Origin: a virus
Strand: one strand, 5' to 3'
DNA: 42,364 nucleotides
Virus record (IMG/VR): IMGVR_UViG_3300038302_000128
Coordinates: 1 to 42,364 of that record
Positions within the stretch are counted from its first letter, which is position 1; each line of letters starts with the position of its first letter. A model generated the notes under the pieces. The model saw nothing but the letters and a program-made list of their open reading frames with translations, was not told the origin of the DNA and did not search any database. Positions 6,154 to 40,776 of this stretch are shown here, piece by piece. The position numbers were made by a program, and so were the translations under genes.

Positions 6154-6215
6154 TAAAAAAGAACCGCCAGTGTCGCAGGTGCCGGGTCCAATCGGATCAC
6201 GAGGCCACTGACGGT
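6154..6215 (-). terminator. Rho-independent-like terminator, leftward
   Basis: On the minus strand the arms ACCGTCAGTG (6215-6206) and CACTGGCGGT (6172-6163) pair with one mismatch, followed by TTCTTTTTT (6162-6154). The loop is long (about 33 bases). It lies in the 101-base gap between the genes ending at 6245 and starting at 6143, the only sizeable gap in this stretch of the operon. It may act as a partial terminator or attenuator. Confidence 0.5.
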
Positions 6216-13653: not shown

Positions 13654-13911
13654 ATGACAACACTCAACTATAATTTACGGGGTCGTCGCACCCCTAGCGA
13701 TAACGATCTGTTCCGCATGGAGATGACGACGGCCAAGAAACTGCCGTGGTTGCATGACGTGCTGGCCGAGATACAGTTCCTGCGCGACAGTGAAGTGAAC
13801 AGCGATGAAGAGATCGAGCAGGAGATTGAAACTTCCGCGACCGCAGACCACGCCCGCATCAAGTACCTGGAGAGCGTGCTCGACGGGGTCGGCGCGGAGT
13901 ACGACAAGTGA
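13654..13911 (+). CDS. Small acidic protein, unknown
   Basis: An 85-residue protein. ATG at 13654 is chosen over an upstream in-frame start at 13540 because GGGAAGG lies just before it and the upstream segment is the structured leader. The protein is helical and acidic (LRDSEVNSDEEIEQEIETSA), with a final helix RIKYLESVLDGV. It overlaps the methyltransferase start (GTGA, 13908-13911). Function unknown; a small partner of the methyltransferase or a replication accessory is possible. Confidence 0.65.
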   Translation: MTTLNYNLRGRRTPSDNDLFRMEMTTAKKLPWLHDVLAEIQFLRDSEVNSDEEIEQEIETSATADHARIKYLESVLDGVGAEYDK

Positions 13912-20141: not shown

Positions 20142-20597
20142 TTACGCCAGGGCTAGTCGCACACCTTCGGCGATGACTTCCTCGGAGTACGGCTGCTGGC
20201 CGTTCTCGTGAGCAATGATCGAGGTGACCAGGTCTTCCAGCACGTCCACGTCAGTGATGTCCACGAGCTCACCCTCTTCGAGATCGAGCTGTGCGCGGAC
20301 GTGACGGGCGTAGGACGTGGTGTCGTTCTCGTGGGGCGGGGCCCAGCGGTTGAGAATTTCCTGCACCGTGTCGATCGGACTACCGTCAGCGGCTTTGCGC
20401 AGGCGGCAGTAAGTTAGCAGCACCTTGGACAGGGCACGGATGCCATGCTCGGGGCTGTCGAAAGTCGTAAAGCGACCCTCTCGCCCGGTGCTTAAAGTCT
20501 CGGGTCCGGCTTCACCAACCCAGGGGTCGCGACCGAAAGCCGCCTTGTTGAAGTCAAGGTTGCCCGGGTTGTTGTTCCGGATTCCACGAGGGGTCAT
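20142..20597 (-). CDS. Endolysin/transglycosylase-like muramidase
   Basis: A 151-residue protein. ATG at 20597 overlaps the upstream stop as ATGA; the open frame runs to 20654 but that part is antisense-like and unneeded. It begins TPRGIRNNNPGNL, then WVGEAGPETLSTGREGRFTTFDSPEHGIRALSKVL and EILNRWAPPHENDTTSYARHV. This GIRNNNPGN...F..F.....GIRA...WAP..EN.T..Y pattern is characteristic of phage lytic-transglycosylase-like proteins (PRD1 P7/virion muramidase type). It lacks a signal peptide. It acts on peptidoglycan at lysis or entry. Confidence 0.8.
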   Translation of the reverse strand: MTPRGIRNNNPGNLDFNKAAFGRDPWVGEAGPETLSTGREGRFTTFDSPEHGIRALSKVLLTYCRLRKAADGSPIDTVQEILNRWAPPHENDTTSYARHVRAQLDLEEGELVDITDVDVLEDLVTSIIAHENGQQPYSEEVIAEGVRLALA

Positions 20598-20842
20598 TGC
20601 ACCAGCACCCAGTCCTTGGCCAGCAAATCTGTCTGGCTGGCCAGCCACGGGCACCGAGCGCCGGGGGTGTTGTCGGCATCCGCGGGGTAGTTGATGTAGA
20701 CGTATGGCAGCGTCATCTTCGAATGCTCGTCAGGAACCTGCAGCTCAAGCCACATGCCCTTCCCGTTCCACCCGATGCGCGCAACCTTCTCGCCGGTCTC
20801 CATCGCAGCGACAGCGTCGCCGATATTCATTACAGCAGACAT
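20594..20842 (-). CDS. Tad2-like (DUF2829) anti-Thoeris protein
   Basis: An 82-residue protein. Two in-frame ATGs precede (20848 and 20842); 20842 has better spacing from AGGGA. It fits DUF2829 closely: MNIGDAVAAMETGEKVARIGWNGKGMWLEL, then SKMTLPYVYINYP and the closing CPWLASQTDLLAKDWVLVQ. DUF2829 proteins include Tad2, a sponge that binds the Thoeris signal 1''-3' gcADPR and blocks the defence. Whether this member binds the signal is not shown. It is coupled to the endolysin gene (ATGA) and lies directly after the giant virion gene. Confidence 0.85.
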   Translation of the reverse strand: MSAVMNIGDAVAAMETGEKVARIGWNGKGMWLELQVPDEHSKMTLPYVYINYPADADNTPGARCPWLASQTDLLAKDWVLVQ

Positions 20843-20856
20843 GATCATTTCCCTGA

Positions 20857-23800
20857 TTAACGTTCCATCGCCGCGTAGTATAGGCGGTTTGTCCGGTTAA
20901 TTACAACGTCCATCTGGTCCTTGATCTTCTGTTCTCTCTTAAGACGTGCGCTGAGATCGCCCTTCTGCCTGCGTACCCGGGCCAGCTGCTGGCGCAGGTT
21001 GTTGAGGCGGCGATCGGCAGACCGGAACACGCCCACCAGCCGGAGCTGCCGGGGGTACTCCTTGCGGACCTGACGCATGGCGTCGTAGTTCTGGTTCTTG
21101 CGGTAGGCATCGACCTCCATCTTGGCGGCCATGACGTCTTTGCCGTTCTCGTAGTAGGCCGAGGTGTTCTCGCGGTTCGTAACCGAGCCCACGACCTTGC
21201 GCAGGAAAGGTATCTGCCCGACCTCGATGTCGCTGAAGTCATCCTTGATCATGCCGGTGGTCACGCTCTCGCCCAGGCTGTAGGTCCGCATGACGAACTT
21301 GCCAACGCCGCCGAGGAAGTAGTCCCAGACATACTCGTAGTGCTCAGGGCTGAAGTCGATGCCGCCCTCGCGACCCTTCGACCCGCCGGTGAGTTCTGCG
21401 ACGCCGGTGGCCAGGGTCTTCCATGCCGTGCTGGTGCTGTTCCAGTAAAGTTCATGTGGTGGTGGAGCAGGACGTGTTCCCATGGCGATCCGCTCCGGCA
21501 CGATGTTGCGCCCGGAGAAATCTTCGTTCACCGCGAGGTCGACGACCGGGTCGAGGATGGTTGGCGTGACCAGGTTGATGAAGGAGTTCGTGCCGCCCAT
21601 CGGGTTGAAGGCGTCGACTGCTGACATGACGATGCTCTTCGCTGTCTCGCCGCCCTTCTTGCCGCCGTTGGCGTAGGCGCTGAGCGCCCGGCCTGTGTTG
21701 TAGAAGGCGTTGAACCCGTAGGGCAGGGGGATTTTCTTATAGCCCTTGGGGTCGGTGTCCCACGGGATGATGATGTTATGCTCAAGGATGTGGTCGGGGA
21801 TTTTGTCGTAGATCAGCTTGCCGTCTTCATCCTCGTCGTCCCACATCATGCGCGCCATCATGTCCATCATGAAGCCGGTGGCGACGATGCCGCCGACGAA
21901 CTTCTGGACGCGCTTGTTGCGCAGGCCGCGGGCCAGTACGAAGGTGCCCTGCAGACTGGCGTTGTAGAACAGGTACAGGCTGTTGGCCAGGGTCTTGGCC
22001 TCGCCGCCCTTGTTGAAGTTGACGGTCAGGTTCTTGGCTGCGAAGGCTGCCTGCTTCGGCGAGACGCCTGCGTCACGCAGAGCCTTGAAGACCGCCAGAC
22101 GTGCCGCGTTCTCAACCACCCTGTTGTAGTCGTTGACGAAACTGGCGAGCGAGTTGAACGCCGCCTTGGCTTTCTTGGCCGGGGTGCGCGGGCCGATATC
22201 GCTGAGCTCGCTCTCGATGCGGCTCATGACAGACTGCAGGTTGCGGATGCCGAGGAACTCGGTCGTGCCGCCCAGCTTCTGGAACTCAAGGAAACTTTTC
22301 TCCCAGGCGTCACCCTTCTCACCGCCACGCAGAATGCGCTTCACGGCCCCGAGGGATTTGGCAATGCTCTTCGGGTTCACGGCGGTGGCCTTGAAGCCGT
22401 CGACGTCGTTGACGTACTGCTGCAGCACGACGCCTGCAGTCTGCATGTCACGGGCGAAGTTGGAGATCAGGAACTCAGGGTTCCACGATGTGTTGACCGA
22501 GGCGAGGAAGCGGTTGACCTGCGACAGGACCTGCACCAGCGTGCCGCCGCCACTGTCGAACTCCCGCTTCATAGCCCGGCGTACGCGCGGGTCCTTGATG
22601 CGTATCTTGACTTCCTTGCCGTCCACCTTGGTGATGAAGATGTCGTCGCCGACGCGGTGGGCGAGGCTGTCCGGCGCGTAGTAGATACGACCGGTGCGGC
22701 CATCGATCTTGGCGCGGACGGGGACAGTCTCTTCGATGGTGGCGTACTGGGCCGCCACGGCAGGGTCTTGCGCTGCGACTTCCTTGATGAACCTCAGGAA
22801 GGCGTTGCCGACGTTGTTCTTGGTCGCGCGCACAGAGGACTCTTCGGCCTGCAGGATCAGCGTGGCGAGGATGTCCTTGGCCTCCGTATGGCGACCAGTT
22901 GGCGACCGGCTCTCGCGGCCACGTACGTCCATGCCGAGGCCGAGGCGGGCCCGGATGTCTTGCGTATCCAGATCGGGATCAGCGTTCTCGTCGACGTAGC
23001 CGCGCAGCGGTACGTAGTTGGGGTAGAGCCTGCGGCCTTCGTCAGCCATCTCCTGACTGATCAGTCCGCTCTCGACCCGCATGCGGGTGCTCTCCTCACG
23101 GATGCCCTTGACGAACGCGTTCATGGTTTGGAGCGTTCCAAGTTTACCTTCCTGGCGCAGCCGGGCGATGTGCGCAGCCGCGTCGGCGTTGCTCATGCCG
23201 GACGGATGATCCTCGGCCGAGCCCTGTTCCTTAAGCCGAGCGTTCCGCTCCGGCGCGTGCAGGGCGTAGAGGTAGTCTTCGAGGTCACCGAGCTGGACGT
23301 CGTTGGTGTTGCTCTTGAGCATCTCGGTGAGCGGCTGGATGAAATCTTTATCGACGTTGCGGATCAGGTCCATGGCGGCACTGCCGTGCAGCTGCTCTTC
23401 GAGGTAGGTGTTCATCCAATCCTCGATGCGGATGCCGTGGCTGCCGACCTCCTCCTGCATCAGCTTGACGCCAAGCATGTAGTCTTCCAGCTTGATGCGC
23501 CAGTCGACGACCTTGCTGTTGCGTCCTGCCTGGTGCAGACGTGAGGCGATGATGCCCTCGGTCTGGCTGCGCGTGAAGTCGACATGCATCTGAGCCTCGG
23601 CCTGCTGGCCGGTCTCGATATCTTGCTGCGACAGGCGCTCGCCCGGGTTGGTGTCGCGGATGGAGTATTTAAGCCCTGGGGCATCGCTTAGCAAAAGCCC
23701 GGGGCCGCGCCCCCAGCTACCGCCGTCGTACTGGCCCGCGTCTACGGCGAGCGTAAAGGCCTCGGCGCGGTCAACGAAACCCCCACCGTACTCACGGGTC

Positions 23801-26800
23801 ACGATGAACCCTTCGGTCAAAGTGTTACCGTCTGCGTCGCGCCCGAACCATATCATACCGTTATCAATTTCAGACGACTGCTGAACGATGTCGCTATGTT
23901 GCTGCCTCGGCTCGCCCCGATAAATCTTACCTTTATATTTGATGGCGGGGCGCTCGATCGCCTTGACGTTCGCCGCGTCTTCATCACGCAACGAGTAGGC
24001 TACGTCTTGATCCGACCACGGCGTGGCTGACCGGTAGCGATCGCCAACGTTGTCTGCCTCAGTATACCCGCTGATCATCAGCAAGACGTCAGGCTCGCCG
24101 TTAGGTGTTAGCGTGTGGTCGAACGCCATGCGTGCGGTGACCGGGACACCGTCGACCTTGAACGAAGGCTCGTCCCAGAAGAAGGCGTAGCGATCAGGCT
24201 TGCCTTCCTTACCGCGCGGTATCCGCTGCACCTTGAGCACGCCAGACGTAAGTCTGGTGACGCCCTCGCGGAAGTGGAATGGTGCGTTGATGCGGATGTG
24301 CTCGGAGAAAGCCAGGGCGTATTCACCGATGCTCTCGAAGCCCACCGCAGTGATGTCCTTGCCATGTTTGCGGGCCATCTTGCGCACGCCGAAGCCGCGC
24401 ATCTCGCCGTCTTTATCTCTGTACCACTCGCCGCGCGGCATCATGATCGCGGTGTCCCTGCCGTTCAGCTTGAAGCGCGCCCAGAGCATGTCGCCGTTCG
24501 GGTTCGGCACGGGATCGTAAGCGTCCTTCGGACGCATGCTGAACATCTCGCCCTCGATACCGTGGTCGCGCAGCAGGACCTTGAAGTCGATGCCCGCCTT
24601 GGTGGACAGCGGCTCGCCATCGTCGTTCGTCGTGCGCCCCAGCGCCTTGTCGGAGGCGAACTCGTAGGGTGCGCGGGCCTGTGCCTGCTCAGGGGCGGCT
24701 GAAGTATCCCGCATGCTGAACATGGGGAAGCCGTTCTCCTTGATCTCGGCGGCGACCGCGTCAGGGATTTCTGCGATGTAGTAGCCCTTGTCGCCTTCGT
24801 TACTGCCCGTGTATGCAGGCGTGTCAGGCGCATCGGGCCTGCCCTTCTTGCCCTTCTTGCCTTGCTTGAACGGTGTCGAGCGATCGTAGGTCTCGCCGTC
24901 CAGCGTGAACTCGTGGACCTTCGTACCCAGCAGACCGCTGATGAGGCTGCGGATTTTCTGATCGTACTCATACTCATAGGCTTTGCGGTATGTCGCCGAC
25001 CAGCGTTTCTCCATCACGACTGCGTTCGGCCAGCCGAAGGCCTTGTAGCCGTTCGCCACGGCGTCGATCAGGGCGCGTTTGACGGCCAGGTCGATCCATG
25101 CGTTGTCCTTGAACGGCGCGTCGGGCGGGCCGCTGACTTCTGCGTACTCTGCGTCGGCGGCTTTTTTCCACGCCTTGATAAGCGGCAGTACTTTCTTTTT
25201 CGCGCCCGGCAAAGTAAGCAGTAGGTCAGCGGTTTTGCCGTCTGCTTTATCGAAGGAGTATGCGCTACGGTCCTCCACCAAACCTTGCATGGCGTGGTAC
25301 CACACCGCCCCTTTCAGACGCCCTGTCGCATTCCCGTAACCGTCAACCGCAGTTTTCATTTTCAGATACGTGCTGTACTGACGAGGGTCTCTTTGCGCAT
25401 CTCGCACCGCAGCACCTACCGCGGCACGCAAAGCTGCCGTTGCGTCCAGGTTAACCCGACGCAACTCAGCCACGTCAGCGCCGGTCTTGTACCCGCGCTT
25501 GCCAGACTGGTGCAGATCGGACTGAGCCTCGTCCAGGAAGTACGTCCTGATGAACGCGTTCATGTCCGGGTTCTGCATGTTCCAGCGTGCCAGCTCTGCG
25601 TGCGCCTTACCCTGCAGTTTGTCGTGCGCTTCTTTGGCCTCTTCAAACTTCTTCTGCGACAGGGCGTAGCCCATGTCAGTGCGACGCCGCGCCTGCACCT
25701 TCTCCACAATTTCTGTCTGCCACGCAATGCCGTCTGCGCCGCGCCGCTGCACTTCTTCCTGCACCATGGCAGCGTCACCGAAGCCGCTGACCTCTGAGAT
25801 GATCTCGTTCGACCGGCGCTCCCACACTTCCTTGCGGGCGGCCTCTTCTTCCGCGGCTGCTTTCAGCTGCTCTTTAAGCTGAAGGTATGTCTCGCCGTCC
25901 ACCGTCACGAACGCGTCGATCGCACCGCGGGTGTCTTCGCCCTTCGGGCGGTAGCGCAGCTCGCGCGTCGTCACCCGGTTGAAGGCGATGATCTTGTTGT
26001 CGGGATGGTGCGAGGTCTTGTAGTAGTCATGCTCCAGACCGGGCATGATGATTTTTATCTCGCGGTAGTTTGTGTGACTACCCTCCATGACGTACTGCCC
26101 CCACTGGGCAACGTCAGCCTCGACGGGGCGCTCGCTAGCATCTACTTCGGCATCCGTACCTTCGTTGTCGTCGTTGATATCTTCGTCAAGCGCGTACCCG
26201 ATGCGGTCGTTATCCGTTAGATGCTGCAAGGCGTTCGTCTCTGCCTCTGGCAGATCGTAGGCCATGTCGCCGCTGTCGTGGTTGTACCAGCCCTGATCGT
26301 TATTACCCGTGATCCTTACGTTGTGGGTGCTGTCGTACATCTCGATAACGGGGTTGTCGTAATAGTTCTCCGATGCCATCTCGCTGATGGCGTCCTCCAG
26401 GCTATCGACGATTTCGTCTTTGTGGTTCTCGTCAACGTATTCCTCTACGGCGTCGTCGAACTCGCTCTGCTCCACGACGTCCCCGCCGAGGTCGCCCACT
26501 GCAAAATCAAAACGCCGCTGCCCGACGATAGGTACGTTGTCGCCGAAAACCTCTTGCAGAATGCGCTCGCGGTTTTCCTGTATGAAGTTGTGCCGCGCAA
26601 TGTCGTAGATATAGTACTCTTCAATGTTCTCGGTGATGCTCTCGGCGTGGTAGTTGATCTCGTCGTAGTCATCGATAACGCTCTCGGACCAGTTCCAGCC
26701 GTTGAAGTAAGGCCGACCTTCACCGTCGAAACCCTCTTCGCCGTCGCCATGTGTGTTTGCGTTAAACTGACTGCGTGACAGATCGGCGACGCGCTCTTCC

Positions 26801-29800
26801 AGCACCAGACCGTTGCTGCGCAGGAAGCCCAGCACCTCGTCACGGGTGAAGGCATCTTCCGTCTTCAGGAAGTCCTCAATGCCGGTCCACTTGATTTCTT
26901 CTTTCTTGATGCCGAGCGTCTTGATCTTGTCCCAGATTTCTTTGCTCTTCGCCATGGGCAGGGCGTTCTGGCCCTTCTTCTGACGCCAGCCCGGAAGGTC
27001 TACCGTCTCGACCTGCTGCTCCAGCTTGCTGTGGAAGCCGACAGACGCCGGGCGCAGCGAGAACATCGGGCCGTTCTGGTACTCGTCCACCATCTCGAAC
27101 GTCGGCGTCTCGCCTACATGCTTGCGCTTCATCCACCGCTGGAAGTGGATGTTGGTAGTGGCGCGTGTGAACGTGGCTTCCTTCGGCGTCTGGTTCTTGA
27201 AGGGCTCGTCGCGCATGCTGAACATCTGCAGGCCTTCGCCCTTGACGATGCCCTGCAGCTTGTCAGTGATCGGCAGTTCCCAGACGGAAGTGGTTTCGTT
27301 GTAGCTCTCCACATGTAACGGCTGTTCCGCATCCGAGTACGATTTGACGTAGTCCAGAGCGTTGTCGTAAGAGCGGAACTCCTGGAGTATGTTCCCCGAA
27401 TTATCCTTCACAACGAACGGCGAGGTAACTTCATCCTCACCCGCGTACAGCAGTTCCGCCACACGGGTTTTCGCGCCAACCTTCTTGCCGATAGTGTTGG
27501 CGTTCTTGCCGACGATCTTGTCGTAGTACGACCGCATGCCGTCGCCGCGGCCACGCAGGAACGCGCCTTCGATATTCTCGATAGCCGCGCCTTCAAAGCC
27601 CTCAAGGTCGGCGGGCTTGCCTTCGTCCTTCACGATCTGCTCGGCCAGTTCAGGGCCGAAGATTTTCGCCATCTCGTCGCGGGACATGCTGGCCTGATCG
27701 AACACCTCGACCGTACCTGACGCGCCAAACTCCGGGTTTCTGTGCGCGACCACGTCGTAGAGGCCGTTGCCTCTATCGGTGTAGTAGATGTCGGTAAGCT
27801 TCTCTTCGAGAGTATACCGCTCACTTTGCATATCGCCCGTCGTCCAGCCGATACTTTCATAACCCTCATGCACGGCCTGTATCAGCACGCGCTTGAGAGC
27901 GAGCGACGTCCAGTCATCGGTCTTGGCGAAGGGGATATGGCCGACGCCGGAACCTTTCGCCTCGCGGGTCTGCCGCTCGACCAGCATGGAGAGTTCGTTC
28001 ACGTAGTCGCGGTAGTCGTCCAGTACCTTCCTGTCGGGTCGCGACATGTCGCTGGCGTCCCAGATGTTGCTCCAATGCACTTCTTCTATGACCGCGCCCA
28101 GCGCCTCTGCCACTGTGTCGAAGCCGAGGTTGTCAACGCTCCTGAGAACGTCTCGGGCGTCTCGGCGCAGCTCTCGCACCTTCGCCCGGGTCTTGGTCAC
28201 CCTGCGATCTGTTTCAGTTGTGACTGCGCTGTCCCGCGCGCGCTGCTCGCTGACAACATTTATGGTCAGGACGCTGTCGTCGCGCTTGTCCGTGGCAACC
28301 CACACTCGGTCGCCCGGCACTTCACCCGGCGCTGTGAACCGCTCCCGTGCGCCTGACAGAAAATGCTCGTCAAACAGGCTGGAGCTTATGCCTGCAGTTG
28401 GGTGCCCCGGTGGAGCATTCTCAACTTCTGTTTTTGTATACATCGTGACTTCGACATCGTCTGCCGTTAGCTGCGGCTTGCGCCACCCCTCCTCACGCGC
28501 TGCCTGCTGACGGTCGCCCTGCATCTCTTCGATGAACAGCATCAGCGCGCCGTCGGCGCGTGTGCGGTCGGACGTGCGGATGCGGACGACGAGCCGGTTG
28601 TCAGCTACGCTATCGCCAATGCGGTGGGCACGGGGTACGAGCCAGTCTTCCACCAGCTGGTTGGCAGGTGACTTGTCTTTCGGGACGGTCAGGTACCACT
28701 CGCGGATGTTCTCGGCGTTGCCCTCGCCCAAGGTGTACTGGGCGAACTTCGGTATCGTCAGGTCTTCATGGCTCTGACCTTGCAGTTGATGCGCGTACTC
28801 GCTCGCGACCACCATGTCACTGGCGGCGTCGAGAAACTCTTCGGGCAGCGAGGCTTGCTCTGCCTGGAGCGGATCGCGTTCGCCGTAGGCTTCCAACACT
28901 GCGGACACGTCGTCGGGGTCTATGTCGTATGTGCGTACCGCAGCACGGAAGGCGAGGTTGGCTTCCAGACTTTCGCTGACCGCATCGTTAATTGCGTCGC
29001 GGACGTTTTTGTACTCTTCAAAGCCCCGCGTCTCCTCGTCCAGCGCCACGCCGTTCTGGTCGATGAAAGCTGCGAGGTCTTCGCCGTTGACGGACTTGGC
29101 AGACTTCAGGAACTCGTCGAGGCCGACGACCCAGTCCAGCTCAGCCTTCTTGACGTTGTTCTTCTCGAAGTGTTTGTACCACTGCTGCGCGGTGCGCTTG
29201 CCGGGGTCAGTGCGGGCGGCTCTGGAGGCCTGACTGTACAGCCCGTTCGGCTCGCGCATGCTGAACATCTCGCCGCCCCGAACGCTCTGCATCTCAGGAC
29301 CCGCGCGTGCAGCGCCACTCCCACCCAGCTCGCCGCGTGCGATCCGACCGAGCACTGCCTCGCCACCGGCGACCGCTGATACGCTCTCGCTGACGCCACG
29401 GAAGAAGTTGAGCATGCGCTTGAAGAGCGACAGCGGCTTGCCCGCCACGCCCTTCTGGCCGTTGGCCATCCAGTAGCGGAATGCGTCAGCGATCGCTTCC
29501 TCTGCGATCACGGGCAGGTTGGGCGACCCGTCTTCGTTGGCGTAGGATGGGTGGGTAGGCACGCCGCCGGGGGCGTACAGGCGCATGGCGCGCTGCATGT
29601 AGGTCTCGCCGGTGCCTTTGAACTTGGCGTTGGCCACGTACTTGGTCAGCGCTTTCCAGTCCGCGTCACTAAACACGCCCAGAGCCTTCAGGGCGTGAAT
29701 AGCTTCATGATCCAGTATCTGCGACAGGCTGGCCAGCTTCTGCTCGAACGACAGCTCGGTCACGGGATCGCTGCCGAAGATTTCCTTGCGCATCGCTGTC

Positions 29801-31827
29801 GTCAGGTGCTCAGGGGCCCAGACGTTCTGCGCCAATTGGATGACGCCGTCGAGGTATGAGCCTTCCGTGCCGCTGTAGCGCTTGCGTTTGCCTTCACTGC
29901 CGGTGGCTTTACCGCGCAGGTAGTCGACCAGCTTTACGATCGGGTCGGTGATGCCGTACTTCTTCGCCCGTGCGTTCAGCTCGTCGGTGAGCTTGACGAA
30001 CTCGGGGTTGGCTTCGTAGGGCATTGCCCCCTCGACCATACCCTCGTCGATAGCTCGCGCTTCAATCTCGCGGGACCGGGGGTTATTGCTGACAGCTTCG
30101 TTGTCCTCGACGCTTTTCTGACGCTGTTCCTGGAGCTCGTCGTACTCGCGTTTCAGTGCGTCCTTGGGCGTGGCGGCGATAGCTGCCTTGCGTGCTGCCT
30201 GCTCCACACGAATAGCGGCGTCGACTTCACTTTCCTTTCCGTCAGGCGTGACTGGCAGGACCTCTGTTGGCGTGCGGGTGACTTTACCGTTCGGAAAAAC
30301 TTCTTCCTTGACGACGGCGTATGACTTCACGCCCTCGGGCGATACTGCCTGTACGGTGTCGTAACGTACGTCGACAGGTTTGACGACGGCGCGCTCGTAG
30401 CGCTTGCCTTTTTTGACGAGGAATTTCCGCGCGACCATGGCCTCGCGGATCGCCTTGGCGGTTTCTTTCCCGACACCAGCGCGGCGCTGGATACCTGCAA
30501 GACTGAAGTCGGCCACCATCTCTTGCCCGTGGCGGTCTGCGGGCACGGTAACGGCAGCGGCGTAATGAGCCTCGAAGAATTTCCCGTGGTAGGCTTCTGC
30601 GAAAGCTGTAGGGTCGTCGGTGCTCGTGAGCTCCTGCTCGACCATCTGGTTGCGTGCGACCTGTGCCTCGACAGCGGTATCGAACTGCTCGCTGATAGCG
30701 ATGCCGTCACGATAAATCTGGAAGCCCTGGGCGTCGTCCGTAGGCTGGATATTCATGTCATGGGTCGGCTGGTTCTCGGTGACGTCCAGAACCTCTGACT
30801 GCATGGTCTCGAACTTGGCGTACAGGTCAGCCTCAGGCGTGCGCTGATCCGTCAGCTGAAGCAGCGCCGGGCGCTCCTCGATCGTAGAGGTGCTGCCGTC
30901 GTTCTTTTTCTTAGCGTCCGCCTGCTTCTTGGGCAGGGCTTCCACTGCAGCGGATATGCCGCCGCCCATCAGCATGCCTGCAGCCATGGCCTCGATCATC
31001 TGGTGGCGCATGCCTTCCCAGTCAATGTCTGTGTCGGTGCCGATCGAAGCGGATATCTCGCCGATGGCTTCCTGGATCGCTTCCGTCACGCCCTCAACGG
31101 CCATACCTTTGGCACCTGCAGCTGCGACAGCCATGCGTTTTGTCAGGACCTTGGTGGCGACAGTCTCTGCAGCCTCTTCACCAACCTCCTTGCCGAACTT
31201 CTTGGTCAGGAAGGCGACGATATCTCCGCCAACCTTGCCGGGTAGCGCGCTGTCGAGTGCAGCGATCGCGGTGCCGCCGATGAAAGCTGCACCGGGTGCG
31301 GTGCCGCCTTTCTCTTTAATGATGCCCTGCGTCTCGCCGACGCCAAGGAAGAATGAAGGTACGAACGCGCCGAGCGCGCCGCCGATAAAGGTGCCCAGAC
31401 CGGGCGCGATCGCGGTGCCGATAGCTGCACCAGCTACGCCGCCTGCCATTGAAGGAGCCATCAGCGGCACCTGCTCGGCGACAGTCTCTGCAACCCATGA
31501 AGCTGCGTCGCCTACACCTCTGATGTCTTGCACGCCGCCTGACCGCTGGACAGCTTCCGCCTCTGCGCGGTTGCGCTCACGGCCTTCGCCGCCCCACTCG
31601 GTCAGCGCGTCAACGCCGAGTAGCTCGCCTGCAGCTTCGACAGTGCCGTAGGCCATGCCCTGTCCAAGATCAACGCCACGTCCGAAGATGTCGCCCAGTC
31701 CAGCTTCTTCAGGGGGTGCTACGGGCTCAGTCTCTCGCGCGTCGAGGAGGTCGTTGGCCTCGTCTTCGCTTACGTCGTCGTTAAAATAGTGAGGAACACC
31801 GCCCGCATCCCGAATAAAATACGACAC
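20857..31827 (-). CDS. Giant polyvalent protein (3656 aa) with zincin motif, duplicated modules and LPD38-like C-terminus
   Basis: Read from GTG at 31827 (AGGAG 7 bases upstream). Seen in order: N-terminus MSYFIRDAGG; glycine-zipper hydrophobic segment about 121-165; helix-turn-helix-like FSLAGIQRRAGVGKETAKAI (440-459); metallopeptidase motif HEAIH (707-711) with EE at 776-777; FSxR-type junctions at about 854, 1535, 1588, 2369, 2428, 2611 and 2721; two copies of a module with W(V/T)G(L/I)xxFLK, (E)xQxDxxQ and PFxxxxWxxLAxKR; a segment YKGKIYRGEPRQQHSDI; and C-terminal VNTSWNPEFLISNFARDM (about 3110) through about 3450, matching LPD38. This is the architecture of large polyvalent proteins that phages inject with their DNA. 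Enzyme activities other than the metallopeptidase motif cannot be assigned by eye. Confidence 0.9.
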   Translation of the reverse strand: MSYFIRDAGGVPHYFNDDVSEDEANDLLDARETEPVAPPEEAGLGDIFGRGVDLGQGMAYGTVEAAGELLGVDALTEWGGEGRERNRAEAEAVQRSGGVQDIRGVGDAASWVAETVAEQVPLMAPSMAGGVAGAAIGTAIAPGLGTFIGGALGAFVPSFFLGVGETQGIIKEKGGTAPGAAFIGGTAIAALDSALPGKVGGDIVAFLTKKFGKEVGEEAAETVATKVLTKRMAVAAAGAKGMAVEGVTEAIQEAIGEISASIGTDTDIDWEGMRHQMIEAMAAGMLMGGGISAAVEALPKKQADAKKKNDGSTSTIEERPALLQLTDQRTPEADLYAKFETMQSEVLDVTENQPTHDMNIQPTDDAQGFQIYRDGIAISEQFDTAVEAQVARNQMVEQELTSTDDPTAFAEAYHGKFFEAHYAAAVTVPADRHGQEMVADFSLAGIQRRAGVGKETAKAIREAMVARKFLVKKGKRYERAVVKPVDVRYDTVQAVSPEGVKSYAVVKEEVFPNGKVTRTPTEVLPVTPDGKESEVDAAIRVEQAARKAAIAATPKDALKREYDELQEQRQKSVEDNEAVSNNPRSREIEARAIDEGMVEGAMPYEANPEFVKLTDELNARAKKYGITDPIVKLVDYLRGKATGSEGKRKRYSGTEGSYLDGVIQLAQNVWAPEHLTTAMRKEIFGSDPVTELSFEQKLASLSQILDHEAIHALKALGVFSDADWKALTKYVANAKFKGTGETYMQRAMRLYAPGGVPTHPSYANEDGSPNLPVIAEEAIADAFRYWMANGQKGVAGKPLSLFKRMLNFFRGVSESVSAVAGGEAVLGRIARGELGGSGAARAGPEMQSVRGGEMFSMREPNGLYSQASRAARTDPGKRTAQQWYKHFEKNNVKKAELDWVVGLDEFLKSAKSVNGEDLAAFIDQNGVALDEETRGFEEYKNVRDAINDAVSESLEANLAFRAAVRTYDIDPDDVSAVLEAYGERDPLQAEQASLPEEFLDAASDMVVASEYAHQLQGQSHEDLTIPKFAQYTLGEGNAENIREWYLTVPKDKSPANQLVEDWLVPRAHRIGDSVADNRLVVRIRTSDRTRADGALMLFIEEMQGDRQQAAREEGWRKPQLTADDVEVTMYTKTEVENAPPGHPTAGISSSLFDEHFLSGARERFTAPGEVPGDRVWVATDKRDDSVLTINVVSEQRARDSAVTTETDRRVTKTRAKVRELRRDARDVLRSVDNLGFDTVAEALGAVIEEVHWSNIWDASDMSRPDRKVLDDYRDYVNELSMLVERQTREAKGSGVGHIPFAKTDDWTSLALKRVLIQAVHEGYESIGWTTGDMQSERYTLEEKLTDIYYTDRGNGLYDVVAHRNPEFGASGTVEVFDQASMSRDEMAKIFGPELAEQIVKDEGKPADLEGFEGAAIENIEGAFLRGRGDGMRSYYDKIVGKNANTIGKKVGAKTRVAELLYAGEDEVTSPFVVKDNSGNILQEFRSYDNALDYVKSYSDAEQPLHVESYNETTSVWELPITDKLQGIVKGEGLQMFSMRDEPFKNQTPKEATFTRATTNIHFQRWMKRKHVGETPTFEMVDEYQNGPMFSLRPASVGFHSKLEQQVETVDLPGWRQKKGQNALPMAKSKEIWDKIKTLGIKKEEIKWTGIEDFLKTEDAFTRDEVLGFLRSNGLVLEERVADLSRSQFNANTHGDGEEGFDGEGRPYFNGWNWSESVIDDYDEINYHAESITENIEEYYIYDIARHNFIQENRERILQEVFGDNVPIVGQRRFDFAVGDLGGDVVEQSEFDDAVEEYVDENHKDEIVDSLEDAISEMASENYYDNPVIEMYDSTHNVRITGNNDQGWYNHDSGDMAYDLPEAETNALQHLTDNDRIGYALDEDINDDNEGTDAEVDASERPVEADVAQWGQYVMEGSHTNYREIKIIMPGLEHDYYKTSHHPDNKIIAFNRVTTRELRYRPKGEDTRGAIDAFVTVDGETYLQLKEQLKAAAEEEAARKEVWERRSNEIISEVSGFGDAAMVQEEVQRRGADGIAWQTEIVEKVQARRRTDMGYALSQKKFEEAKEAHDKLQGKAHAELARWNMQNPDMNAFIRTYFLDEAQSDLHQSGKRGYKTGADVAELRRVNLDATAALRAAVGAAVRDAQRDPRQYSTYLKMKTAVDGYGNATGRLKGAVWYHAMQGLVEDRSAYSFDKADGKTADLLLTLPGAKKKVLPLIKAWKKAADAEYAEVSGPPDAPFKDNAWIDLAVKRALIDAVANGYKAFGWPNAVVMEKRWSATYRKAYEYEYDQKIRSLISGLLGTKVHEFTLDGETYDRSTPFKQGKKGKKGRPDAPDTPAYTGSNEGDKGYYIAEIPDAVAAEIKENGFPMFSMRDTSAAPEQAQARAPYEFASDKALGRTTNDDGEPLSTKAGIDFKVLLRDHGIEGEMFSMRPKDAYDPVPNPNGDMLWARFKLNGRDTAIMMPRGEWYRDKDGEMRGFGVRKMARKHGKDITAVGFESIGEYALAFSEHIRINAPFHFREGVTRLTSGVLKVQRIPRGKEGKPDRYAFFWDEPSFKVDGVPVTARMAFDHTLTPNGEPDVLLMISGYTEADNVGDRYRSATPWSDQDVAYSLRDEDAANVKAIERPAIKYKGKIYRGEPRQQHSDIVQQSSEIDNGMIWFGRDADGNTLTEGFIVTREYGGGFVDRAEAFTLAVDAGQYDGGSWGRGPGLLLSDAPGLKYSIRDTNPGERLSQQDIETGQQAEAQMHVDFTRSQTEGIIASRLHQAGRNSKVVDWRIKLEDYMLGVKLMQEEVGSHGIRIEDWMNTYLEEQLHGSAAMDLIRNVDKDFIQPLTEMLKSNTNDVQLGDLEDYLYALHAPERNARLKEQGSAEDHPSGMSNADAAAHIARLRQEGKLGTLQTMNAFVKGIREESTRMRVESGLISQEMADEGRRLYPNYVPLRGYVDENADPDLDTQDIRARLGLGMDVRGRESRSPTGRHTEAKDILATLILQAEESSVRATKNNVGNAFLRFIKEVAAQDPAVAAQYATIEETVPVRAKIDGRTGRIYYAPDSLAHRVGDDIFITKVDGKEVKIRIKDPRVRRAMKREFDSGGGTLVQVLSQVNRFLASVNTSWNPEFLISNFARDMQTAGVVLQQYVNDVDGFKATAVNPKSIAKSLGAVKRILRGGEKGDAWEKSFLEFQKLGGTTEFLGIRNLQSVMSRIESELSDIGPRTPAKKAKAAFNSLASFVNDYNRVVENAARLAVFKALRDAGVSPKQAAFAAKNLTVNFNKGGEAKTLANSLYLFYNASLQGTFVLARGLRNKRVQKFVGGIVATGFMMDMMARMMWDDEDEDGKLIYDKIPDHILEHNIIIPWDTDPKGYKKIPLPYGFNAFYNTGRALSAYANGGKKGGETAKSIVMSAVDAFNPMGGTNSFINLVTPTILDPVVDLAVNEDFSGRNIVPERIAMGTRPAPPPHELYWNSTSTAWKTLATGVAELTGGSKGREGGIDFSPEHYEYVWDYFLGGVGKFVMRTYSLGESVTTGMIKDDFSDIEVGQIPFLRKVVGSVTNRENTSAYYENGKDVMAAKMEVDAYRKNQNYDAMRQVRKEYPRQLRLVGVFRSADRRLNNLRQQLARVRRQKGDLSARLKREQKIKDQMDVVINRTNRLYYAAMER

Positions 31828-31830
31828 CGC

Positions 31831-33825
31831 TTACTCCTGTTTTGCCCTGCGAGGCCGCTCATCGCCGCCACCTTTACCGGTATGGTGCGCATACTGGATG
31901 ATGCCGTCGAGGCTTAGTTTTTTCATGGCGTCGGTTACGTTTGTGGCGAGCCCGTCCACCACCATCTGCTTCGCTATCGGCATGGCAGAGGTGATTATGC
32001 GAGAGATCGCGGTCTTGTCCGTCTTGGACATGCCGCCTGCCTGTGCGGCCTTGGCCGTGAGCATGCGCGCTTGTGCGCTGAGCTTTTGCGCTCCGGCGGT
32101 CATCTCCTGAATGGACAGCCGCTCGCGGCCCTGCAATTCATTGACGAGGTTCGAGCGTTCGACTTCATCCTGCTTGCGTTGCGCCGCAGCCGCCTGACCC
32201 TTAGCCGCGTCACGCTGTGTCAGCGCTCCGGCCAGTCCAGTCTCCATACCCATGACGGCACGCTCGTCAGCCCGGATGCCCTGCATCTCGCGCTCGTTGG
32301 CGTCCATGGCAGGCAGCACGCCCTTGCGCAGAGCCTCGCCGAAGCTGCCGCGCTGGCCCATCATGCCGAGACCGGCGCGCATCATCAGGTTGGCTCCGGC
32401 CCGCTTGCGCGCCTTGCCGATACCTGCTTCGTAGTCCTTGATCTTCTGCTTGATCGCAGTGTAGCGATTGACGTCGCCGTCGGCCTTCGCCTGCTCCATG
32501 TCCACGCCCATCTGGGCGATAGCGTCCCGGGCTTTCGCCTTGGCTGCAGCGCCGAGACCAGTCTCTGTGTCGCCGATGCCGCCGGGGTGTGAGCTGTCCG
32601 CAGCCTGAGCGGGCTTGTTCTTCGGCAGCGGCACAGTTTTCTTCTGGCCTGCCGGAGATGCTGCGGATGCTGGGGATGCTGAGGTGCCGCGGTCGTCGAA
32701 CTTGCGCGGGTCGCCGCGCATGTGGCCTTCCATGGCCTCCGCGTCCCGTGTGCGTTGCTGAGCTGCTGCGTACCCGGTGGTGTCTGGGCCCGCTGCTCGC
32801 TTCACCCAGTCATGGCTGTCTACCCACTTGTCCCACGACCCATCCACGAGGGGTGCTGGATTGACGCGGTCCATGCTTGGGCGCGCGCTACCTGAAAAAT
32901 GTGCTGCCTCTTCAGGCGTGAGCGGACCCGCGCCTCGCTCCCGAGGGAAATTTGGAGCCGCGCCGCCGCCTGAAGTCGTCGGCTTGCCTTGCCCGGTGTT
33001 GGCGTAGTCGACCTTGCCCATGCTGTCGGTCAGCATTTTGCGCAGTGCGCTGGCCTTGTTAGCCGACCCGCGCTGGATGGACTGCACGCCTTTTTTCGCA
33101 GCGTCGATGCCTGCGATGCCTGCGTCTCGGGCTACGTCAGACACAGCACCTTTGGTGTCGCGGACGAAGTTGTCTATGCCGTCGTCGCCGATGTTGTTTT
33201 CAGCCCACTCGACGACGCCGTTGCCGAAATTCTGAACGCCCTGCACGCCCTGCTTCGCGTACTTGAGAGCGTCGATACCCAGCCCGCGCCAGTTGTCGCC
33301 TGCAGACTGCTGGGGTTGCAGCCAGCTTGGGACTTGCATGCCGTTTGATTGGTACGCTCCCCGCTTCTGCTTCAGGTCCCAGGCTTCGTTCTGCGCTTTT
33401 ACCTTTGCCCGGACTGCTGGCGACAGGGGTCTCGGAGCAGGCGCGTGCGGAGCGTGAGGCGCTATGGAGCCCCCCGAGTGAAACCCGCGGGCACCAGCGT
33501 TAGCCACAGGCCCTTGCGGACCCTGAGGCACGACGCTCCCCAAACCTTGCTGCATCTGCTGTCCGCCACCCGGGCCGGTGGGGGCAGGGACACCTCCGCC
33601 ACCCTGAGCGGCGGACCCCAGAAGCTCTTGTGGGATTGTCTCCGACAGAGGGGCTTCGGGAAGTTGTCCATTAGGGGCGTCAGCTTCACGCCGCATGTCG
33701 CGCCGTCGGGTCATCTCCGACAGAATAAGATATTGGGGTGCCAGTCCGTCCGGCGTCTGCATGCGACCGTACAACTGCTTGTCGCTGAGGTCCTTCAGCT
33801 TGTCCTGGACTTCAAGAATATTCAT
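31831..33825 (-). CDS. Internal virion/tail-associated protein
   Basis: A 664-residue protein from ATG at 33825, sharing one base with the upstream stop (TGATG) and ending 3 bases before the giant gene. N-terminus: VQDKLKDLSDKQLYGRMQ...GLAPQYLILSEMTRRRDMR, a pattern found at the start of virion proteins encoded next to polyvalent proteins in podovirus-like phages. Residues 55-140 and 270-400 are glycine/proline-rich and disordered. Residues 430-620 are helical, with long alanine-rich helices (ALTQRDAAKGQAAAAQRKQDE). Likely part of the ejected internal core or tail channel. Confidence 0.7.
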   Translation of the reverse strand: MNILEVQDKLKDLSDKQLYGRMQTPDGLAPQYLILSEMTRRRDMRREADAPNGQLPEAPLSETIPQELLGSAAQGGGGVPAPTGPGGGQQMQQGLGSVVPQGPQGPVANAGARGFHSGGSIAPHAPHAPAPRPLSPAVRAKVKAQNEAWDLKQKRGAYQSNGMQVPSWLQPQQSAGDNWRGLGIDALKYAKQGVQGVQNFGNGVVEWAENNIGDDGIDNFVRDTKGAVSDVARDAGIAGIDAAKKGVQSIQRGSANKASALRKMLTDSMGKVDYANTGQGKPTTSGGGAAPNFPRERGAGPLTPEEAAHFSGSARPSMDRVNPAPLVDGSWDKWVDSHDWVKRAAGPDTTGYAAAQQRTRDAEAMEGHMRGDPRKFDDRGTSASPASAASPAGQKKTVPLPKNKPAQAADSSHPGGIGDTETGLGAAAKAKARDAIAQMGVDMEQAKADGDVNRYTAIKQKIKDYEAGIGKARKRAGANLMMRAGLGMMGQRGSFGEALRKGVLPAMDANEREMQGIRADERAVMGMETGLAGALTQRDAAKGQAAAAQRKQDEVERSNLVNELQGRERLSIQEMTAGAQKLSAQARMLTAKAAQAGGMSKTDKTAISRIITSAMPIAKQMVVDGLATNVTDAMKKLSLDGIIQYAHHTGKGGGDERPRRAKQE

Positions 33826-34856
33826 CAGCTATACCCCTGCTGCAGGTTTTGATACTGCTGCGCCATGCCGAGCCCGGCGATGCCCGCGCCCATCATGTTG
33901 CTGAGCGGATTGACCGGCGGCTGGTAGCTCGCCACGTCCGACACTGGCGTCACCGGCGTGCCGCGTAGCGCGCCGCCCATGAAGTTCAGCTGGGCACGCT
34001 CGAAGTCGCGCTGGTTGATGAAGTCGGTGTGGGCGATGTCCAGCTGAGCCTGCTTCTGCTGCTGCTGCATCTGACCGATGTTGCCCAGCGCACCGATGCG
34101 GGCGAGGTCTGCGGCCTGACGTGCCTGACCCAGACCTGCCAGCTGCCCTGCGGCACCGAGACCAAGGGTCTCCGCTTCCCGCCGGGCGCTCTCCTGAGCC
34201 ACCTGTGCCGCCGTATCCATCTGCCCCTGTTGTACCTGACCTTGTTCTGACATGCCCTCGGCCTGCAGACGTGCTGCACGGTCGGCCTCGAACTGACCCT
34301 GCGCGCTCTGATAAGCCTGCGACATCTGGGTCGCCTCGGTATCAGCCAGCTGCTGGTTCAAGTCTTTCTGCGCGATGCGGTTGGCGACGGCTCGGCGATC
34401 GTTGCCGAAGGCCCCGGCCTGAATGGCCAGTGCGTCGCGATCTGCACGCTGCTCACCGAAGCGCTGGCGGGATCGTTCCTGCAGCCGGTCGAGCACGTTG
34501 TTGGTGTACGGGTTCATGTACTTCTGGGCTGCGGCATTGTCGAACTCGCCGCCGCTGAAACTCGCAGCGTTATAATTGTTGTTGATCCCGCCCGCCTCGT
34601 ACATCGTGCCGAGCCCTTGACGCAGACCGGCAATGTTGAACTCCTGAGGAGAGCCCATGCCACGCGTCTGGTCGAATGCTGACACAGTGTCCGGCGCGAA
34701 GTCCGCGACCCGGGGGGCGTTGTACTGCGTGTAGGGCTGATTGCTTTCAGCCTCGGTGCGCTGGAGCAGCCGATCATAGTAAGGGGCTACGTATGAAGGC
34801 AGGCCCGTGTTCGTTGTCGTCTGGCTCTGCGCGCTGCCGCCACTGTCTTTACCCAT
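33825..34856 (-). CDS. Virion protein, internal/ejection type
   Basis: A 343-residue protein. ATG at 34856 (MGKDSGGSAQSQTTTNTGLP) is chosen because AAGGAG lies upstream; the open frame to 35060 is antisense-like. It begins with a serine/threonine-rich tail, then SYVAPYYDRLLQRTEAESNQ. The rest is long glutamine/alanine-rich helix (DRLQERSRQRFGEQRADRDA, AQVAQESARREAETLGLGAA), ending in a hydrophobic glycine-rich C-terminus. This composition is typical of phage internal or DNA-ejection proteins. It overlaps the GNAT-like gene by 8 bases. Confidence 0.7.
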   Translation of the reverse strand: MGKDSGGSAQSQTTTNTGLPSYVAPYYDRLLQRTEAESNQPYTQYNAPRVADFAPDTVSAFDQTRGMGSPQEFNIAGLRQGLGTMYEAGGINNNYNAASFSGGEFDNAAAQKYMNPYTNNVLDRLQERSRQRFGEQRADRDALAIQAGAFGNDRRAVANRIAQKDLNQQLADTEATQMSQAYQSAQGQFEADRAARLQAEGMSEQGQVQQGQMDTAAQVAQESARREAETLGLGAAGQLAGLGQARQAADLARIGALGNIGQMQQQQKQAQLDIAHTDFINQRDFERAQLNFMGGALRGTPVTPVSDVASYQPPVNPLSNMMGAGIAGLGMAQQYQNLQQGYS

Positions 34857-35322
34857 GAGCTGCACTCCTTTCAACAGGGGCTTTGCGGCCACCTGATAGT
34901 TCTTTTCTACCGACACTTTGGGGGAACGTCCAGCCGGAACTTGCCAGCGTGCGCTCCCAGCCGCGCCTGCCGACCATCTCAAGGACGGCGCAACCGGCAT
35001 CACGGCCATAATTTTCGAGCGTGGACAGCAGCGGATCAAGCCACTCGTCCATCCGCTCACCGCCGCAGTACGCTACGTACAGCACCCTTCGGGAGGTATA
35101 GGTATGCACCTTCGTGACGCATGCACCCATAACGCCCAGCTGGCCGCCGTCCAGCACCGAGTGATCCAGCATGACCCAGAGTGTGGCGTGGTCGTCCAGA
35201 AGCTCCTGAAGGACCTCCTCGACCGACCGGTTTCCGTCCAGCGCACCCTCGACGTGCGTTGCGGCCTCTTCCCACACGACAGGGACGTGTTGCAGGGGGA
35301 TCATGGAGATGTTGATGCTCAT
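34849..35322 (-). CDS. GNAT-like phage protein (gp13-type)
   Basis: A 157-residue protein from ATG at 35322, overlapping the upstream stop as ATGA. The central part fits an acetyltransferase-like fold: strand VLDGGQLGVMGACVTKVHTY, RRVLYVAYCGGERMDEWLDPLLSTLENYGRDAGCAVLEMVGR and RGWERTLASSGW. Similar proteins lie between internal virion genes in T7-like phages. A clear acetyl-CoA loop (R/Q-x-x-G-x-G/A) is not evident, so it may be a structural or assembly factor with this fold. Confidence 0.6.
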   Translation of the reverse strand: MSINISMIPLQHVPVVWEEAATHVEGALDGNRSVEEVLQELLDDHATLWVMLDHSVLDGGQLGVMGACVTKVHTYTSRRVLYVAYCGGERMDEWLDPLLSTLENYGRDAGCAVLEMVGRRGWERTLASSGWTFPQSVGRKELSGGRKAPVERSAAHG

Positions 35323-38615: not shown

Positions 38616-38914
38616 GGCGTCAATACCGTCACTGTGCCGACGGCTCCTGTTGCTGCGAACGATGCTGCGTACGCCCTGTTGGCAACGGCGATGCTCAGCA
38701 CGCCGTCGTCGGAGAACACGTCTCCATCTCTAAGCCCGCTGCCGTTCGTTGGCAGATTGCTTACGTTAAGTGTCGAACCTCGCAAAGGCCCCGGGTTCTC
38801 GATGTAGCTCATGAACTGCTCGATCGATCGGATCAAGTTGTTCATGTGCAGAGGGTCGTAATCTGCCGGGGGGAGTGGCAAGGCAGTCCTCGAAAGTTTT
38901 GTGCCTGCGGTCAT
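38612..38914 (-). CDS. Small virion protein, unknown
   Basis: A 100-residue protein from ATG at 38914, coupled at both ends by ATGA overlaps. It has a helix LHMNNLIRSIEQFMSYI, then a beta-rich part (LRGSTLNVSNLPTNGSGLRDGDVFSDDGVLSIAV) and a hydrophobic C-terminus. Small proteins with the LPTSxxGLxxGDVYxDxG-type pattern sit after the large neck/tail protein in many marine phages, presumably as virion parts. Confidence 0.65.
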   Translation of the reverse strand: MTAGTKLSRTALPLPPADYDPLHMNNLIRSIEQFMSYIENPGPLRGSTLNVSNLPTNGSGLRDGDVFSDDGVLSIAVANRAYAASFAATGAVGTVTVLTP

Positions 38915-40776
38915 TGGCGGCCATCCATTCTTACGTCGAGCGAGGGTTTGCCGTCGCGCCAGAAAACCCCGACCGTGTTGCTGGATACCTTATACTTCAA
39001 GGCTCTGCCGCGCACGCGGATATGGGCCTGTTTTGTGTATTGCTCCACGGGCGTTTCGGACGACCTTGTGATCGCTGACGCGTCCGCAGTGTCGTAGTCT
39101 GCGCCCTGGAAGGCGCGCGGCGTCACCGTCAGAGTTACGACCGGCGAGGCGGCTGTCGACCCTGCGAAAGTTACGTCGGGCAAGATGCGGCGCGCGAACA
39201 TGAACCGCGAGCCATCGGTCAGCTCGAAGTCGTTGCTCTCGATGTAGGCGTTCATGGCGGACACCGGTGTGGTGCTGCCGTCGTCGCAGCCATGCTCCTG
39301 GTAATACAGTACGCCGTCCGTGCCAGCGGCCAGCGGGTAGTCGTCGAAGTTTCTGTCGATCCACAGCGTCCGCGTCAGCGTGCCGAAGTACCACAGGTTC
39401 TCCAGGTAGTTATGAACGACATAGCTATCCGGCACGGTGGAGGTGCCTGAAGGGTAGAACCATATGCACTCGAAGTGGCTGCGGTTGATACCGGCAACGA
39501 CCTGCTCTTCCTGGCTGCGATTGATGCGGTTGAAAACGTACTCCCGCACCGTGCTGGGCAGCGGGATGACGCGACCGTCGTAGGCGAAGAAGTTGTCGCG
39601 GCCCATCCACTCTGTGGTGTTGTCATGCACCGCCATGGCGTTCGGGGAGATGATGCTGGTGTTCGTCGCGATCAGCGTCTGGCCGAACGTGAACGGGGGC
39701 CCGAGGAAGCGGATCGCGTAGAGCGCGTTGTCCGTCCAGACCAGATTTTCCTGCTGCGTCCGCACGCCGGTGATGATCTCGGAGCCGTCACTCAGGCGCA
39801 AGCTGCCTGCTGAGTTCGAGGTGTCGGTCGTCCAGTTGACGATGCTCTCGGTGTCGGGCCAGCGGATCAGCATAGGGTCCTGCACAGCGGAACCCGCGGG
39901 GTTACAGCCCAGCGCCAGCATGTGGCGATCCTCGGCCGACATGATGACGTGACGGCACACAGTCGGGGTGTCCGAGGCGCTCGCCAGAGTGCTGATGTCG
40001 ACCATACGCGTGGTGACGTCTGAGGACGTGTCGTAGTAGTAGATGCTGCCGTCACGAGGGTTGGTGACAAGGTCCTCGCCGAAGTTATCCTGCGACCACA
40101 GCCGTAGCCGGTCGCCCTCGACGAGCGATGTGGAGGGGTCACCGTAACCGTCAGCGCCATACTCGCCTGCGCCGTAGCCTGTGCCCGTGAACGATGTCGA
40201 CAGGCCGATGTTGATCTGGTAGGCCGCGGACACGGAAGAGCCGCCACCGGCGACGCTGCCGGACGTGGCGTTTGTTGTCAGGGTGATCTTGTACGCGTTG
40301 GCGCTCGTCACTGAGGTGACCGCGTGCTCTGCGTTAAACTCTGATGCCGGGATGCCGTCGATAGGCCCTGTGGTCGCGCTGTAGGTGACGTAGCTCCCTG
40401 CGGTGACGCCGTGAGACGTGTGAGCGACGCTCACCACTGCCGACCCTGAAGCGTCCGTCGTGAACGGGTCAGTGCCAAGAGTAGCGGTCAGCCGGATCGG
40501 GGTCACGTCGTGGAAGGCAAAGCCTCGAACGATATAGTATTTGACGTTGGTGCCCATGCCGTACAGGTTCGTGCCGTCGAGCGCGGTCCACGGCTTCAGC
40601 GACCGGGCGGTGCCGAGAAAGGTGTTGGACTGTGACGTCTTGATCCAGCCGCCCATGATCTCGGGGTGGCCGCTCTGAAAGCGCACGAGGCTGCCGTCGT
40701 ACCACCCGCCTGAGTTCGTCAGGTTGGTGCCCTGGCGATCTATTCCGGGCTTCAGGTCCAGCGGCATTAACGGCAT
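38911..40776 (-). CDS. Neck/tail virion protein (podovirus-type, possibly gp10-like)
   Basis: A 621-residue protein from ATG at 40776. N-terminus: LDLKPGIDRQGTNLTNSGGWYDGSLVRFQSGHPEIMGGWIK, a hallmark of a virion protein common in marine and alphaproteobacterial phages. The body is beta-rich with repeated strands and aromatic pairs (GTNLYGMGTNVKYYIVRGFAFHDVTP, DRLRLWSQDNFGEDLVTNPRDGSIYYYD, FECIWFYPSGTS). This suggests a propeller-like fold, as in packaged-DNA stabilisation or tail-accessory proteins. Assignment to a specific structural role is tentative. Confidence 0.7.
   Translation of the reverse strand: MPLMPLDLKPGIDRQGTNLTNSGGWYDGSLVRFQSGHPEIMGGWIKTSQSNTFLGTARSLKPWTALDGTNLYGMGTNVKYYIVRGFAFHDVTPIRLTATLGTDPFTTDASGSAVVSVAHTSHGVTAGSYVTYSATTGPIDGIPASEFNAEHAVTSVTSANAYKITLTTNATSGSVAGGGSSVSAAYQINIGLSTSFTGTGYGAGEYGADGYGDPSTSLVEGDRLRLWSQDNFGEDLVTNPRDGSIYYYDTSSDVTTRMVDISTLASASDTPTVCRHVIMSAEDRHMLALGCNPAGSAVQDPMLIRWPDTESIVNWTTDTSNSAGSLRLSDGSEIITGVRTQQENLVWTDNALYAIRFLGPPFTFGQTLIATNTSIISPNAMAVHDNTTEWMGRDNFFAYDGRVIPLPSTVREYVFNRINRSQEEQVVAGINRSHFECIWFYPSGTSTVPDSYVVHNYLENLWYFGTLTRTLWIDRNFDDYPLAAGTDGVLYYQEHGCDDGSTTPVSAMNAYIESNDFELTDGSRFMFARRILPDVTFAGSTAASPVVTLTVTPRAFQGADYDTADASAITRSSETPVEQYTKQAHIRVRGRALKYKVSSNTVGVFWRDGKPSLDVRMDGRQ

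Follow-up and report, generated by a model that had tools for sequence, protein, structure and literature searches.

A giant LPD38 polyvalent phage protein carries repeated MFSMR-type junction tags that may be read by a single phage-specific factor

The locus and its giant polyvalent protein

The window analyzed here is a virus record taken whole (42,364 bases), and the stop-free ORF at 20857–31827 encodes the giant protein that we call W (Table 1). W joins several distinct modules in a single very large polypeptide, seen as separate homology blocks in PHROGs and BLAST comparisons: PHROGs match its C-terminal 900 residues together with an N-terminal virion-structural module, and LPD38 (PF18857, E = 2.5e-40), near the C terminus, is its sole Pfam match above cut-off. 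W thereby resembles the polyvalent proteins of phages and conjugative elements described in 2017 by Iyer, Burroughs, Aravind, and co-authors (PMC5512222) in being a giant multidomain virion-type protein with LPD38 and an embedded zincin-like metallopeptidase (MPTase). On this footing it is filed as a polyvalent protein, not as a demonstrated polyprotein.

Judged by sequence, the W gene sits in what reads as a podovirus-like internal/ejection-protein operon, with a DNA ejection protein homologue upstream, a virion structural protein gene on the same strand, and a peptidoglycan-degrading protein downstream. Terminase, portal, and major capsid genes were not recognized among the window ORFs scanned, and the record is probably a fragment; the phage collection held no close match to it, and a single-protein viral scan found no relatives. 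The C-terminal module has homologues in phages of Vibrio, Ruegeria, Burkholderia, and enterobacteria and in a Methanosarcina virus. The homologue in Methanosarcina virus MetMV (L004, 5416–14424) is 3002 residues long, with HELTH and with MFSR at residue 1980.

Other features of the window include a Tad2-like (Thoeris anti-defence 2-like) protein of 84 residues (20594–20848, minus strand; PF11195, E = 2.2e-21) encoded just past the W gene on its downstream side; a perfect 33-nt inverted repeat with a 19-nt loop (5342–5426), possibly a terminator, attachment, or replication element; a 61-nt direct repeat (5785–5845 and 6094–6154; 84% identity, spacing 309 nt) that suggests duplicated small genes; and a DNA methyltransferase homologue (13908–15151, plus strand) that adjoins an HNH/NUMOD4 endonuclease.

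Table 1. Features of the W gene and its surroundings, with positions in the window
Feature	Residues of W	Position	Strand	Evidence and remarks
Giant LPD38 polyvalent protein W, 3656 aa		20857..31827	−	Stop-free ORF, GTG start; PF18857 E = 2.5e-40; PHROGs 14770/616/10691
N-terminal module, virion structural protein-like	33–320	30868..31731	−	PHROGs match (phrog_6958); Gly-rich membrane-like stretch
Zincin-like metallopeptidase module	655–835	29323..29865	−	Matched in ~64 related ORFs; AlphaFold2 core pLDDT ~95
HEAIH	707–711	29695..29709	−	Read in translation
EE, candidate third zinc ligand	776–777	29497..29502	−	Translation; EEA[IV]AEMFR conserved in many relatives
Tag 1, MFSMRE	854–859	29251..29268	−	Motif search, blind motif finder; disordered linker, pLDDT 30–48
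Domain A, copy 1	863–936	29020..29241	−	Homology blocks begin at 862/863; folded in AlphaFold2
Domain B, copy 1	1287–1531	27235..27969	−	Alignments with relatives; AlphaFold2
Tag 2, MFSMRD, end of B fold	1535–1540	27208..27225	−	Motif search, blind finder, AlphaFold2
Tag 3, MFSLRP	1588–1593	27049..27066	−	Motif search, blind finder; low-confidence coil in AlphaFold2
Domain A, copy 2	1596–1690	26758..27042	−	Homology blocks begin at 1596/1598; alignment
Domain B, copy 2, C-terminal part	2236–2368	24724..25122	−	Alignment
Tag 4, MFSMRD	2369–2374	24706..24723	−	Motif search, blind finder, domain B alignment
Tag 5, MFSMRP, candidate border	2428–2433	24529..24546	−	Motif search, blind finder
Tag 6, AYSLRD, candidate border	2610–2615	23983..24000	−	Motif search, blind finder
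Tag 7, KYSIRD, N-terminal to the common C-terminal module	2720–2725	23653..23670	−	Motif search, blind finder, BLAST
Common C-terminal module (LPD38 at 3340–3541)	2787–3650	20878..23469	−	Pfam, BLAST
DNA ejection protein homologue, upstream of the W gene		33825..35060	−	phrog_4287, E = 1.8e-15
Virion structural protein		38911..40776	−	PHROGs
Peptidoglycan-degrading (transglycosylase/endolysin-like, lysozyme-like) protein, downstream of the W gene		20142..20654	−	phrog_873/7182

Seven junction tags and the modules around them

The first-pass annotation had read seven short junctions in W. A motif search places seven [MAK][FY]S[MLI]R[DEP] sites within one residue of those positions, starting at residues 854, 1535, 1588, 2369, 2428, 2610, and 2720, and a blind motif finder returns exactly these seven as the best repeat in W (score 44.3, against 22.5 for the top shuffled control). 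The strict pattern [MY][FS]S[MLI]R[DPE] occurs five times against 0.001 expected, and S[MLI]R[DPE] seven times against 0.6 expected, with a maximum of four in 1000 shuffles. The N terminus, for which the annotation also gave SYFIRDAGG, reads YFIRD, without the serine, and was left out of the count. In IMG/VR the exact string MFSMRD is not enriched: it has four matches, none in a recognizable polyvalent protein, and a permuted string has 17. The exact wording seen in W is thus not widespread.

Codons within the tags of W vary synonymously (Ser as AGC, TCG, or TCC; Arg as CGC, CGG, or CGT), which indicates selection on the protein sequence. Methionine stands first in five of the tags, as it would if these residues were internal translation starts giving shorter products; in relatives, however, the first residue of a tag is mostly K, R, L, or Q, with no start codon, and we find this account hardly credible.

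The junctions had been described as each lying between apparent domains. Homology supports this at 854, 1535, 1588, and 2369 and, more loosely, at 2720; the borders at 2428 and 2610 lack such support because BLAST against related loci found no relatives for residues ~2375–2720. Regions 863–1535 and 1596–2369 are two diverged copies of an A–B module, with tags on both sides of each. In the BLAST comparisons with related loci, homology blocks begin immediately past tags 854 and 1588, most matches to the zincin module end at ~812–842, ahead of tag 854, and the common C-terminal module starts at ~2775–2787, after tag 2720.

Two AlphaFold2 models take in three of the seven tags (854, 1535, and 1588, one model ending soon after the last). 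In the model of residues 610–950, tag 854 lies at pLDDT 30–48 between the zincin core (~95) and domain A (~89); in that of residues 1280–1620, tag 1535 falls in coil right after the last B helix, with confidence dropping there. Placement within folded cores, named in the first-pass annotation as an observation that would count against it, is thus not seen for these three sites in the two models. Domain B itself has hundreds of relatives in phage contigs and a confident AlphaFold2 fold; it has no Pfam match in W, and Foldseek of its model against PDB returned nothing significant.

The zincin pattern is present in the translation as first described: HEAIH, with EE downstream. HExxH is kept in 78 of 82 HMM matches to the module. 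Pfam on W gave no match for the putative zincin, and Foldseek of the whole AlphaFold2 model containing it gave nothing significant against PDB. A ZOOPS motif search downstream of the zincin recovered the domain's own helix instead of the tag.

B domains generally end in GxP[LM]F, and at tags 1535 and 2369 the M-F overlaps this conserved end, so that M-F is there partly domain sequence; S-M-R-D is not. One might accordingly read the tags as ordinary conserved domain ends repeated through domain duplication, an account that fits the closing GxP[LM]F of B domains in many proteins and the two tag-flanked A–B copies of W. Against it, the two copies have no self-BLAST match at E < 1 yet still keep MFSMR, and zincin and ART-like domains also precede tags. 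Together with the tag variation among relatives described below, these points make this reading improbable.

Tags in related proteins and their matching within one protein

Relatives carry equivalent tags at equivalent borders, but with a sequence that differs by protein. In 86 dereplicated LPD38 proteins, [KRM][FY]S occurs 157 times against 84 expected, other common third-place residues reaching at most ~1.1 times expectation. The same pattern lies 120–160 residues past HExxH in 12 cases against ~2 expected, several of the 12 sharing ancestry. The looser pattern [LMFYIVRKQT][FY]S.?[RK] gave 105 against 80 in relatives and was set aside as too loose.

Tag types in other giant polyvalent proteins include FMPAE, FQRE, MFQQ, FSPR, and MFSRR. 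Single proteins repeat their own form: there are five copies of [FY]MP in each of L176 and L218, which with W rank highest in an unbiased scan, taking its first three places; five of [FY]M[SA]E in L367; four of FSR in L113; and three each of MFQQ in L224, [IL][FY]QGE in L265, and MFSRR in L148. Some Q-type tags—IFQGE, LYQGE, and LFQGE in L265, LYQAP and LFQGP in L277—look like picornavirus 3C sites (LFQG), which we take to be resemblance only. ART-like domains likewise end in a tag, as in NVDIRFSVPD and DPRIRFSIAD. A 2387-residue protein of Dolichospermum phage Dfl-JY45 (L249, 10091–17254) has four ART-like segments (VVYHGT ... QIKSAIGN), a zincin-like HEVVGH domain, AFSRTE, and domain A; despite AFSRTE between the HEVVGH domain and A, the large proteins of this phage showed no tag common to them.

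The differing tags allow a covariation test, in which the tag ahead of domain A and the one that follows domain B, at non-homologous places, are compared within and between proteins. Proteins with A–B modules were taken from IMG/VR; they come mostly from metagenomic contigs with some truncated ORFs, and the sample leaves out Shiga-toxin phage relatives seen among the matches. Tags of relatives were located partly by mutual fit, and the permutation applies the same rule. With W excluded, tags match within proteins in a first sample of 36 modules (p = 5e-4) and in an enlarged sample of 83 (z = 7.8, p ≤ 5e-5; 0 of 20,000 permutations reach the observed value). The match is similarly strong for 57 modules from proteins no shorter than 1,400 residues, again without W (z = 6.7, p ≤ 5e-5), and weak for short proteins (z = 2.2). 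In six control comparisons, with windows placed farther ahead of A or beyond the tag, z was 2.25 once and otherwise lay between −0.4 and 1.4; of four control windows ahead of A, one had p = 0.015. With pre-A tags assigned independently of the post-B tags, both carry the same residue behind the aromatic in 18 of 46 cases, against 6.4 expected.

Inheritance does not explain this matching: the B-domain tree shows 28 changes of the tag residue, against 31.0 after shuffling, and at the pre-A border a protein's own tag fits better than that of its nearest relative (30 against 12, p = 0.004). The same 28 changes count against conserved domain ends, as do the residues after the aromatic, which differ from one protein to the next and agree, within each, with the unrelated pre-A tag.

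A DNA-level origin, with the tags as scars or microhomologies of module recombination or as products of gene conversion, would suit the strongly mosaic character of these proteins and the 17 bases that tags 854 and 1535 have in common. Identical codons at matched residues number 44 of 81 against 37.9 expected from codon usage (28 against 26.2 in W); with codon identity so near this expectation, DNA copying is not the explanation. Both Ser codon boxes are used as well, and we hold such an origin very improbable. Taken together, the within-protein matching, the changes on the tree, and the codons favor one recognizer per protein over domain homology, inheritance, or DNA scars. We infer that a single factor probably reads all tags of one protein, bearing in mind that the permutation tests leave some relatedness in.

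Candidate readers of the tags and known systems

A protease would account most simply for tags placed where modules meet, and we regard it as the likeliest recognizer, one that would cut at these sites. The chief alternative in which nothing is cut has one factor reading the tags as docking or handling signals, for head packaging, for binding of a portal or ejection partner, or for unfolding and translocation at injection. All covariation results need recognition only, and the presence of a zincin shows no link to the tags: HExxH presence and matched tags are not significantly associated (20 of 37 against 8 of 20). Docking, however, needs no particular place, whereas border position and a tag in a disordered linker beside the zincin form a cleavage-site arrangement; we consider uncut signals rather unlikely.

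The first-pass reading of W as a possible self-processing polyprotein is thereby supported in part. Should the tags be cut, the HEAIH zincin is a hypothetical cutter of W. At constant B similarity, zincin similarity tracks the tag residue (partial r = 0.40, p = 0.0002, n = 30), and in many of these proteins the tag used adjoins the zincin module. When the far-side tag, away from the zincin, is used instead, the association is gone (partial r = 0.05, p = 0.19, n = 26), and the coupling of zincin clade to tag, strong at first, was dropped after this control. The same HELWHHIE-type zincin accompanies both Q and S tags.

A different cutter, either a phage head protease or a host protease, with the zincin as an effector or structural element, would account for the negative far-tag test and for tag-bearing proteins, such as L113, in which zincin or HExxH was found neither in the protein nor in its locus; phage P1, moreover, has a separate predicted prohead protease, Pro (PMC9024508). 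Several points run the other way. None of 28 related virus records yielded an S78/S49 head protease (the window itself is without the terminase–portal–capsid part), tags particular to each phage are not easily put down to a host protease, and the zincin often adjoins the tag. We judge cutting by another protease to be about as unlikely as docking.

Known systems bear on cleavage in both directions. Zincins are the commonest polyvalent-protein domain, autoprocessing by the embedded MPTase has been predicted, and P1 DdrB is described as processed before packaging; the N4 virion RNA polymerase, by contrast, bears an MPTase and is packaged unprocessed (PMC5512222), which speaks against cutting of the tags. 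P1 DdrB shares a zincin motif with W, though C-terminal (HELGHH), and shows no repeated tag, only a single RFSYNP at residue 756. The DarB-like/LPD38 giant virion proteins of Bcep22-like phages (JC1 gp69, BcepMigl) have a C-terminal module homologous to that of W; unlike W, they carry methylase, helicase, and lytic transglycosylase domains upstream and only weak tags such as RFSVGA. Burkholderia phage JC1 gp69 has been detected in virions with 51 unique peptides (PMC9144972); this and the ejection-protein operon are indirect signs that W may enter the host along with the DNA. Iyer et al. drew the analogy to RNA-virus polyproteins (PMC5512222), and W would resemble picornavirus-like polyproteins as a linear polyprotein with repeated short sites; its enzymes and domains are unrelated to theirs. 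Neither an FSxR nor a YSLR motif was found in the text of PMC5512222, and the open-access literature held no earlier description of the junction tags, subscription papers lying outside the scope of that search. To our knowledge, then, neither a tag code particular to each protein nor its covariation has been described before; processing by zincins had already been predicted (PMC5512222).

The explanation we favor, at about an even chance, is that the seven MFSMR-type sites are junction tags read by one phage-specific factor, most likely a protease that separates the modules. The tags would be short linear recognition sites, under protein-level selection, where the modules of a giant virion protein meet; a single factor, with a specificity that varies among phages, would read every tag of a given protein. 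A protease in this role would free the N-terminal structural part, the zincin, the A–B effector modules, and the LPD38 part, either while the head matures or once the protein has been injected. For this protease the leading candidate would be the embedded HEAIH zincin, with another phage or a host protease also possible. That polyvalent phage proteins in general are true polyproteins, each phage having its own cleavage code that coevolves with an embedded or phage-encoded protease and so stays matched at every module border, is an extension we find plausible at somewhat less than even chance.

Ever since polyvalent proteins were described, it has been a question if they work in one piece or are split into individual effectors, and the tags make a direct test possible: they mark where new ends might appear in virion and infection proteomes, allow module borders to be predicted from sequence, and supply peptide substrates for zincin assays. 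A fast-changing code matched within each protein would explain how mosaic proteins accept new modules. If true, polyproteins with such a code of their own could take in unrelated effector modules by adopting the local tag.
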